33,970 nucleotides of DNA, taken from Salinicola sp. (GTDB taxonomy: Bacteria > Pseudomonadota > Gammaproteobacteria > Pseudomonadales > Halomonadaceae). Position 1 is the stretch's first letter; each line of letters starts with the position of its first letter. This document shows positions 28,418-31,678 of this stretch, piece after piece. Location: assembly GCA_002695065.1 (NCBI GenBank), contig NZNW01000046.1:1-33970 (forward strand), given 5' to 3'. The position numbers were made by a program, and so were the translations under genes. Under the pieces are notes generated by a model, which worked only from the letters and a program-made list of their open reading frames with translations, made no database searches and was not told the DNA's origin.

Positions 28418-28568
28418 CGACGGATCTCCGCGCCTGCGGGGAACGGGAGTCGAGGCGAACCGCGCGGCTCGCGCGGATCGGTTGATCCCCGCGGGCGTGG
28501 GGAACAGAGCTGGCGGTAATGCTGGCGGGCCTCCTCGAGCGGTTCATCCCCACGGGCGTGGGGAACAG
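28418..28568 (-). CRISPR. three-repeat type I-E-like CRISPR array without cas genes
   Basis: Three 29-base repeats lie at 28418-28446, 28479-28507 and 28540-28568, separated by two spacers of exactly 32 bases (28447-28478 and 28508-28539), a strict 61-base period. The two right-hand repeats differ at two positions, and both contain the CCCC...GGGG hairpin and GGGGAACAG end of type I-E repeats in reverse orientation. The array therefore reads on the minus strand with its leader to the right. The leader-distal repeat is degenerate (about 20 of 29 match), as terminal repeats often are. No cas gene is visible in 34 kb. Confidence 0.9.
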
Positions 28569-28790: not shown

Positions 28791-28803
28791 GTTATGTTAT
28801 AAC
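28791..28803. promoter_or_regulatory. Zur-type palindrome over the zinc operon promoter
   Basis: GTTATGTTATAAC has perfect GTTAT/ATAAC arms and matches the GTTATA-n-TATAAC core of gammaproteobacterial Zur boxes. TATAAC inside it can serve as the -10 element, so bound Zn-Zur would block transcription. It lies 27 bases before the first gene of the operon. Confidence 0.7.
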
Positions 28804-28829
28804 CTTTGCTTCCGTTTCAGGAGATTGTC

Positions 28830-28976
28830 ATGTCACACCGTCACCGGCACCGCCCCGATGGGCCGTGCCATTTTTCTTTGATGTCGCTGGGCGCCGGGCG
28901 GCGCGTGTTGCTGGCGCTGTTGCCGCTGGCGGTGCTGTGGCTCGTCGCGGGCTGGGCTGCCGGGGTGTTCGGTTGA
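28830..28976 (+). CDS. 48-residue His-rich single-span membrane peptide, first gene of zinc operon
   Basis: An ATG at 28830 with a strong AGGAG six bases upstream opens a 48-residue frame ending at TGA 28974-28976. The N-terminus is MSHRHRHRPDGPCH, with four His and one Cys in 14 residues, able in principle to bind zinc. After a short basic stretch (GAGRR) comes one hydrophobic helix of about 20 residues (LLALLPLAVLWLVAGWAAGV). The stop overlaps the ATG of the ATPase gene (TGATG), so the two are translationally coupled. The Zur-type site is directly upstream. I know no named family. It may be a regulatory or accessory subunit of the transporter, or a leader peptide. Confidence 0.65.
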   Translation: MSHRHRHRPDGPCHFSLMSLGAGRRVLLALLPLAVLWLVAGWAAGVFG

Positions 28977-29698
28977 TGGCGCAGTCGAGGACACAGGCGA
29001 TGGATGAGCCCAATACCCTGCTGACACTGGAGTCTCTGTCGCTGGCGCAGGGCAATCGTATGGTGCTGGAGGGTATCGACGGCCACTTCGAGGCCGGCAC
29101 CATTACCGCGCTGGTGGGCGCCAACGGGGCCGGCAAGAGCACGCTGGTCCAGGGGATCATGGGCGAGCTGCGCCCCGTCAGCGGTCGGGTTGACTGCCGG
29201 GTGCCTAACGCCCGGCGTGCCTGGCTACCGCAGCAGCTGGCGCTGGACCTGACCTTCCCGATGAGCGTCGAGGAACTGGTGATGAGCGGCTGCTGGCCGA
29301 CCCATGGCAGTTTCAAGCGCTACGGTCCGACGGAGTATCGCCGCGGCCAGGCGGTGATGCAGCGCCTGGGTCTGCAGGCATTCGAGCACCGCCCTCTGGG
29401 CGAGCTGTCCGGCGGCCAACGCCAGCGCGCCCTGCTCGGCCGTACCTTGATGCAGGAAGCCCAGTTGCTGCTGCTGGACGAGCCGTTCGCCAATGTCGAT
29501 GCCGCCACCGTCGAGGTGCTGATCGAGGTACTGCAGGACATGGCGGCCAAGGGCGCGGCGATCATCATCGTGCTGCACGATCACGATCAGATGACCCGAC
29601 TGGCCGATCGGATCCTGCATCTGGAACGCGGGCATGGCACCTGGTCGACGCCCGCCCGGGTCGGTGGCTCCCCCTCCACGGCGGAGACGCTGGCATGA
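28976..29698 (+). CDS. znuC: zinc ABC transporter ATPase (ZnuC-like)
   Basis: 240 residues. Walker A GANGAGKST, signature LSGGQRQRALLGR, Walker B LLLLDEPFANVD and the H-loop IVLHDHDQ are complete, and WLPQQLALDLTFPMSVEELVMSG is the Q-loop region typical of metal-type ABC-3 importers. It powers Zn2+ uptake through the permease that follows. The start at 28976 overlaps the stop of the 48-residue peptide gene; the longer frame to 28865 is merely that gene read in another frame, and ATG 29000 is an alternative. The end overlaps the permease gene by four bases (ATGA). Zinc rather than manganese is inferred from the Zur-type site and the His-rich partners. Confidence 0.85.
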   Translation: MAQSRTQAMDEPNTLLTLESLSLAQGNRMVLEGIDGHFEAGTITALVGANGAGKSTLVQGIMGELRPVSGRVDCRVPNARRAWLPQQLALDLTFPMSVEELVMSGCWPTHGSFKRYGPTEYRRGQAVMQRLGLQAFEHRPLGELSGGQRQRALLGRTLMQEAQLLLLDEPFANVDAATVEVLIEVLQDMAAKGAAIIIVLHDHDQMTRLADRILHLERGHGTWSTPARVGGSPSTAETLA

Positions 29699-30579
29699 TC
29701 GACTGGCTGTTCTCTCCGTTGATCGATTTCGGCTTCATGCGCCGCGCGCTGGTGGCCGGCCTGGCGCTATCGCTGGTGGCGCCGCCACTGGGGGTTTTCC
29801 TCACCCTGCGCGGCATGAGCCTGGTCGGCGACGCCATGGCCCACGCCGTGCTGCCGGGCGTGGCGGTGGGTTTCCTGCTGGCCGGGTTCTCGCTGCCGGC
29901 GATGAGCTTTGGCGGCCTGATCGCCGGGCTGCTGGTGGCAGGGCTGGCGGGCAGCGTGTCGCGCCTGACCGGCCATCGCGAAGACTCCGCCATCGCCAGC
30001 TTCTACCTGATCTCGCTCGCCGCCGGGGTGATGTTGATCTCGATGCGCGGCAGCAGCGTCGATCTGACCCACGTGCTGTTCGGCTCGATCCTGGCGGTGG
30101 ACAGTACCGCGCTGTGGCTGATCGTCAGCGTGTCGAGCCTGACCCTGATCGTGCTCGCCGCGATCTTCCGCATCCTGGTGGTAGAGTGCCTCGACCCGCT
30201 GTTCCTGCGCGGCCAGGGCATTCGCGGCGGCGCCGTGCATGGCCTGTTCCTGGGCTTGATGGTGCTCAACCTGACGGCCGGCTTCCAGACGCTGGGGACG
30301 CTGATGGCGGTCGGCCTGATGATGCTGCCGGCAACGGCGGCGCGCTTCTGGTCGAAACGCCTCGAGGGCCTGATGGGGCTGGCCATCGCCATCGGCATGA
30401 TCTCGAGCGTGGGAGGCCTGCTGCTCTCCTATCACGCCGGCCTGCCCTCCGGCCCCTGCATCATTCTGCTCGCCGGCATCATCTATCTGTTTTCCGCGCT
30501 GTTCGGGCGGTACCACAGCGTCTTTGCCCGCTGGCGTCGTCGGGTCCAGCCCATGCTGCCGCCGGACGCCCACGGCTAA
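29695..30579 (+). CDS. znuB: zinc ABC transporter permease (ZnuB-like)
   Basis: 294 residues with about 8 membrane spans, an ABC-3 family permease. FLTLRGMSLVGDAMAHAVLPGVAVGF at the start and the late segment GFQTLGTLMAVGLMMLPATAARFWSKRL are the conserved parts. It forms the inner-membrane path for the metal handed over by the periplasmic binding protein. The ATG lies inside the ATPase stop region (ATGA, 29695-29698), indicating coupled translation. The C-terminus is basic (RWRRRVQP). The gap to the binding-protein gene is 40 bases, so all four genes probably form one transcript. Confidence 0.88.
   Translation: MIDWLFSPLIDFGFMRRALVAGLALSLVAPPLGVFLTLRGMSLVGDAMAHAVLPGVAVGFLLAGFSLPAMSFGGLIAGLLVAGLAGSVSRLTGHREDSAIASFYLISLAAGVMLISMRGSSVDLTHVLFGSILAVDSTALWLIVSVSSLTLIVLAAIFRILVVECLDPLFLRGQGIRGGAVHGLFLGLMVLNLTAGFQTLGTLMAVGLMMLPATAARFWSKRLEGLMGLAIAIGMISSVGGLLLSYHAGLPSGPCIILLAGIIYLFSALFGRYHSVFARWRRRVQPMLPPDAHG

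Positions 30580-30619: not shown

Positions 30620-31678
<1,059 letters not shown>

Follow-up and report, generated by a model that had tools for sequence, protein, structure and literature searches.

A 48-residue open reading frame (ORF) at the head of a zinc-import operon in Salinicola sp. is a real, conserved gene. Many zinc-import operons of the Pseudomonadota encode helix relatives of its product at the same place, and this suggests an overlooked fourth part of these importers. The product is probably a single-span accessory subunit of a Zni/Azt-type zinc importer, a reading drawn from sequence comparison because the helix keeps specific residues, goes with the importer and would be made coupled to the ATPase. 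The window, the whole stretch of 33,970 nucleotides that was analysed, carries the following features of this operon:

28791..28803, no strand: Zur-type operator GTTATGTTATAAC, exact match, 26 bases before the ATG of the small ORF
28819..28823, plus strand: Shine-Dalgarno-like AGGAG of the small ORF, read from the sequence, six bases before the ATG
28830..28976, plus strand: small single-span protein ORF, 48 residues, ATG start (translation, searches, alignments, pN/pS, profile, model)
28974..28978, plus strand: TGATG overlap of the small-ORF stop and the ATPase start, read from the sequence
28976..29698, plus strand: ABC ATPase of a zinc importer, Zni/Azt type (Pfam ABC_tran, 7e-26)
29695..30579, plus strand: permease, ABC-3 family (Pfam ABC-3, 7.7e-54)
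30620..31678, plus strand: substrate-binding protein with a long His/Asp-rich loop (Pfam ZnuA, 1.2e-85)

Translation of 28830-28976 (+) gives MSHRHRHRPDGPCHFSLMSLGAGRRVLLALLPLAVLWLVAGWAAGVFG*. Residues 1-14 contain four His (3, 5, 7 and 14) and Cys13, and the N-terminal HxH...CH motif (residues 3-14) is followed by FSLMSL, by RR and by a helix at 22-44 that bears LW....WA. An earlier sequence-only reading had described the ORF, its AGGAG and ATG, the four His and one Cys in 14 residues, the one hydrophobic helix and the TGATG, all of which hold. The stop TGA (28974-28976) and the ATPase ATG (28976-28978) have one base in common. An upstream in-frame TTG at 28806 is an alternative start, but agreement among relatives begins at the Met of MSHRH/MAHRH, which favours 28830. 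The AlphaFold2 model of the small protein is a single confident helix at 22-44 (mean pLDDT 95 for residues 31-40), with residues 1-20 poorly modelled (mean pLDDT 59-64). The peptide and nine relatives have no Pfam or NCBIfam match above a curated cut-off, the best chance-level matches being FUSC (0.032), DotU (0.13) and, in 1/24, ATP_synth_reg (0.031); PDB sequences gave none up to E 1. Relatives of the ORF among longer proteins were considered and rejected for want of a linking Pfam or NCBIfam family.

Descriptions of zinc ABC importers name an ATPase, a permease and a binding protein, and some importers have AztD as an extra periplasmic chaperone. The importer of the window had been called ZnuABC-like, a label that gives way to Zni/Azt-like because Azt models outscore Znu models for all three proteins. 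The Azt models give the best NCBIfam scores throughout, yet all lie below the curated cut-offs: AztA 196.3 bits (cut-off 220) for the ATPase, AztB 256.7 bits (cut-off 280) for the permease and AztC 282.7 bits (cut-off 350) for the binding protein. The corresponding Znu scores, likewise below every curated cut-off, are 101.9 bits for ZnuC (cut-off 306), 83.8 bits for ZnuB (cut-off 284) and 132.7 bits for ZnuA (cut-off 268). A tblastn search at 1e-5 that covered position 28801 to the end of the window and 32 related loci found no aztD match. A long run of GACCAC repeats (31030-31110) codes for the His/Asp-rich loop of the binding protein, and its length could change by slippage. In several sister operons (L201/L306, L290, L293, L310, L311 and L312) a WD40-like protein is encoded downstream of the binding protein; some of these loci have the small ORF and others do not.

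The Zur-type palindrome that the earlier reading had placed upstream of the ORF is the exact operator listed above, and its position close before the first gene points to a Zur-regulated operon. With up to two mismatches allowed, 0.42 such palindromes are expected in the window, a figure that does not refer to the exact form. The whole genome contains seven exact boxes against none for the reversed control. Five of the six others adjoin genes matching ZinT, Amidase_3, FolE2 (GCHY-1), DksA and CobW/COG0523, which are typical Zur targets; the sixth adjoins what we take to be a gene resembling alcohol dehydrogenase. A promoter scan of the plus strand ahead of the small ORF gave no sigma-70-type site. 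Between the SIMPL-domain gene and the promoter of the zinc operon lie two type I-E-like CRISPR repeats (GGTTNATCCCCNCGNGCGTGGGGAACAG; 28480-28507 and 28541-28568) 61 nt apart, with a possible third, degenerate repeat just upstream of the first; among 297 loci, the repeat pattern occurs only in three that cover this same place. Elsewhere in the same genome (L286, C79), a second metal ABC system with two permease-like genes lies just ahead of an amidase gene that has its own exact Zur-type box.

The earlier reading had proposed comparing related operons and the reading frame, and both comparisons came out in favour of a gene. The ORF is present in 18/18 genus genomes at 79-100% identity with a frame free of stops, and its pN/pS is 0.158 (18 distinct genus sequences). 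Across the family, the peptide has a match with E up to 0.1 in 250/275 genomes and no match in the other 25; in 235 of the 250 the E value is 7.3e-11 or lower. The pN/pS of 112 distinct family sequences is 0.369, and third codon positions are the most variable. Split by region, the value is 0.132 in the HxH...CHFSLMS stretch, which is biased downwards because the sequences were chosen by the motif C[HQ]FSLMS, versus 0.526 in the faster-evolving rest, the helix part. In the family sequences chosen for alignment, His5, His7 and Cys13 are invariant (17/17) and His14 nearly so (16/17), and FSLMS is invariant in the aligned Halomonadaceae peptides. In every strong Halomonadaceae locus examined, ATPase and permease lie directly behind the small ORF, whose position is thus constant. 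The permease is also present in 20/40 family genomes with no (25) or weak (15) peptide match; upstream of it, a single-helix ORF that lacks the His/Cys motif is clear in 18 of these 20, one is doubtful (G179) and one is cut by the contig end (G107). In one genome (G009) the small ORF is duplicated, and the second copy (L023, 1436-1611), about 8 kb from the intact one, has decayed; it runs out of frame mid-way and has no intact ATPase behind it. Among viral contigs, 12 pattern matches were found and none was confirmed, and plasmids gave no match to the peptide itself.

Beyond the family, sister operons were located via the permease in 38/381 genomes of the order, 12/350 of the class and 79/329 of the phylum, draws that overlap, and 69 operons were sampled (19 order, 10 class, 40 phylum). 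An automated rule places the end of a hydrophobic ORF at the ATPase start in 52/69 of them, compared with 80/3539 random points in the same loci (2.3%). Three more ORFs (L179, L232 and L267) fall just beyond the limits of the position rule, and 14/69 operons have no helix ORF by eye. The stricter pattern [RK]x(9-13)LWxxxxW[AS] occurs in 28/69 operons versus 0/3539 control points. The C-terminal helix, roughly SLL..S...RL..A..L..LW....WA, forms the conserved core. A core profile was trained on 24 of the 26 such ORFs from 31 outside-class loci, trimmed by eye to their last 33-38 residues (L254 and L281 omitted); Arg and Trp are invariant across these 24 sequences. Run on the window, this outside-class profile has the small ORF as its sole significant match (E 1.8e-9; next 0.31). 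A single-span ORF that matches the core profile thus ends at the ATPase start of this Zni-type importer. The idea of a chance ORF appeals to shortness and to other frames being open as well in GC-rich DNA; it is contradicted by conservation in genus and family, by the profile matches, by pN/pS and by the LW....WA position test, and its probability is negligible.

These residues also bear on whether the sequence might matter as a helix alone, with the nascent chain bringing the polysome to the membrane for assembly of ATPase and permease. Such a targeting device would suit a hydrophobic first gene with coupling to a soluble ATPase. Conservation goes beyond hydrophobicity, however, as the invariant Arg and Trp of the 24 outside-class sequences, the placement of LW....WA and the FSLMS of the Halomonadaceae attest, and we regard targeting as quite unlikely compared with a subunit role.

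The outside-class profile was also applied to genomes and loci held out from training. It matches just before the permease in 21/27 held-out permease-positive genomes and in the Salinicola genome itself, the matches sitting 665-884 nt ahead of the permease and in its orientation. The misses are G516 and five genomes that belong to a single genus (g484: G1032, G1035, G1134, G1153 and G1156). Among permease-negative genomes, 0/30 score below E 0.07 (best E 0.0765). At non-training loci, some of them repeated, it marks the ATPase start in 188/214 and misses 26; in several of the missed loci a helix ORF is nevertheless present (L186-188, L192-194, L196 with its repeat L200, L228, L233, and L238 with L241). 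The ORFs of L184, L186-188, L192-194 and L196 are recognised solely by position and hydrophobicity. The ORF keeps to the importer: no other locus falls below E 0.016 in 58 genomes, and elsewhere in 242 held-out loci the profile matches only the decayed L023 copy (7e-5) and one weak place (0.19). This constancy is hard to reconcile with a free-standing zinc-handling peptide (one that buffers or chaperones zinc, or that regulates another protein) whose place in the operon serves regulation alone, and the absence of His/Cys from many relatives tells against it too. Such a peptide is favoured by its four potential ligands, by the His-rich N-termini that several families share and by a zinc-limitation operon, but it nevertheless seems distinctly improbable.

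The product may instead be dispensable and the ORF a leader that merely sets ATPase translation, through coupling or through zinc-dependent stalling at His codons. Overlap was counted in a named genome collection with 189 confirmed relatives, of which the best 80 were taken (79 bearing Halomonadaceae names, one being 'Gammaproteobacteria bacterium MFB021') and two, L100 and L169, were left uncounted for overlap and box, giving 78 loci. With ATPase starts picked mechanically, the small-ORF stop overlaps the ATPase start in 71/78, in 53 by one base (TGATG type) and in 18 by four bases (ATGA type); in the remaining seven the ATPase starts 2-4 nt after the stop. Of these loci, 56/78 have an exact Zur-type box in the 250 nt upstream; outside the family, an exact box was found in only 15/69 operons. 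A leader thus gains from the overlap, from being the first cistron after a Zur-type box and from the lack of a strong Shine-Dalgarno sequence, by eye, before the ATPase start. Against it, selection acts at the amino-acid level, helix residues are kept across the phylum while the N-terminus, which stalling would need, varies freely, and many loci are non-overlapping, with the ORF ending up to about 70 nt before the start of the ATPase alignment. Because selection acts on membrane-helix amino acids phylum-wide, a leader without a role for its product is unlikely. Translational coupling of the small ORF to the ATPase is itself probable and is compatible with a leader role and a protein role both being true.

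Many such importers evidently work without the small ORF, since it is missing from 14/69 operons and since, on an ATPase tree of 82 rows, 14 of them without the ORF, its presence and absence require at least six changes, many branches being weak. Where it is present, the N-terminus ranges from almost nothing (33-38 residues in total, e.g. L177, L296 and L299) to long His-rich tails, which also occur in other families (L245, L247, L257-259, L270-272 and L278). In most relatives it has no His or Cys. The earlier reading had made a His-rich membrane peptide the distinguishing feature; the helix has held up, while the His stretch appears as an add-on and the gene extends beyond the Halomonadaceae. 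On sequence comparison, the His/Cys-rich N-terminus is a lineage elaboration and the helix the widely shared part. In 25/29 peptides the residues preceding the helix include more Lys and Arg than those following it, and by the positive-inside rule this excess would place the N-terminus in the cytoplasm. On a plasmid of Bradyrhizobium sp. 172 (L297, 4245-5627), the core profile matches the N-terminus of a DUF7453-matching protein (E 5.9e-6) whose gene follows that of the zinc-binding protein; the ATPase there was not found to be preceded by a small ORF of its own, and the protein is a possible natural fusion of the core helix. Ordinary gene callers had been expected to miss so short a frame, which is not always so: RefSeq lists relatives as hypothetical proteins in Skermanella mucosa (WP_202684557.1) and Comamonas antarctica (WP_175506313.1). 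At Enterobacter and Klebsiella loci the small ORF is absent among the gene-table entries listed, the tables being incomplete. The open-access literature, to which the search was confined (subscription papers lay outside its scope), yielded no description of such a protein.

A mechanism consistent with an accessory subunit can be proposed. When zinc is short, Zur would leave its box and the operon would be transcribed. The small protein would be made first, coupled via the overlapping stop and start to the ATPase, and would most likely insert with its N-terminus in the cytoplasm. Its helix might then pack against the permease, with the conserved Arg at the inner end and LW....WA at the outer end, and would stabilise or tune the permease as KdpF and AcrZ do for their transporters; the KdpF gene likewise heads its transporter operon. 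The general function must lie in the helix, since many relatives have no ligands. In the Halomonadaceae, the probably cytoplasmic HxH...CH motif may in addition sense or buffer zinc: at the permease's inner mouth, His5-x-His7...Cys13-His14 could form a zinc site through which import is slowed once cytosolic zinc recovers. This zinc-sensing step, drawn by analogy, is the most speculative part of the mechanism and is offered tentatively; sensing cannot be the general function, because the N-terminus of most relatives has neither His nor Cys. The composite proposal is more doubtful: that Pseudomonadota importers of the Zni/Azt type have an overlooked fourth subunit and that a cytoplasmic zinc site of the Halomonadaceae type closes the importer when zinc is sufficient, a fast post-translational brake atop Zur.

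If the fourth gene is conserved as proposed, zinc importers would have been reconstituted and deleted with one part unnoticed. The metal-ligand tail, where present, would allow a direct test of whether importers are braked within seconds, before Zur acts. The case also illustrates that position, a profile and held-out genomes can together serve to validate a short gene.

Among known systems, ZniCBA is close in arrangement. In K. pneumoniae, passages of PMC10797113 place zniCBA between mltB and pncC and report an experimentally shown role in zinc uptake. The available passages on ZniCBA from Klebsiella (PMC10797113) and Rhizobium (PMC12183173) give the same order of ATPase, permease and binding protein with a Zur-type box in front; they mention three genes and make no reference to a small ORF. 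In the K. pneumoniae mltB-pncC locus, the kind of locus in which ZniCBA was characterised, the fourth gene is nonetheless found: a Zur-type box is followed by a 35-residue helix ORF, MFTSIFMASGAVRAAIAGVLLAALWLATWWAVTLP, that overlaps the ATPase start. The mltB-pncC locus of Enterobacter hormaechei has a 33-residue helix ORF just before the ATPase. Unlike its Salinicola counterpart, the Klebsiella helix ORF has no His/Cys N-terminus.

AztABCD of Paracoccus, as presented in parts of PMC5387054 and PMC7731109, supplies in AztA, AztB and AztC the best models for the importer of the window, which differs in staying below all three curated cut-offs and in having no AztD match. In two aztD-bearing aztABCD operons (L295 and L298), the core profile has no match before aztA. 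AztD was considered as a stand-in where the ORF is missing and was rejected, as in the tblastn search at 1e-5 operons with and without the ORF alike gave no AztD match.

KdpF, AcrZ and CydX are single-span accessory proteins of larger membrane complexes (in part from PMC7267776), and each has one short helix, as the small ORF product does. No sequence relationship to them was found or is claimed; unlike them, the ORF product would partner an ABC importer, and a metal-ligand tail is present in some of its relatives. For the proposed sensing step, the model is BbZIP, in which, according to PMC10256678, a cytoplasmic His pair near the transporter exit lowers uptake when zinc is plentiful. The BbZIP sensor is a loop of the transporter itself, of another fold and another transport class than the small ORF product; cytoplasmic His residues would be the feature common to both.
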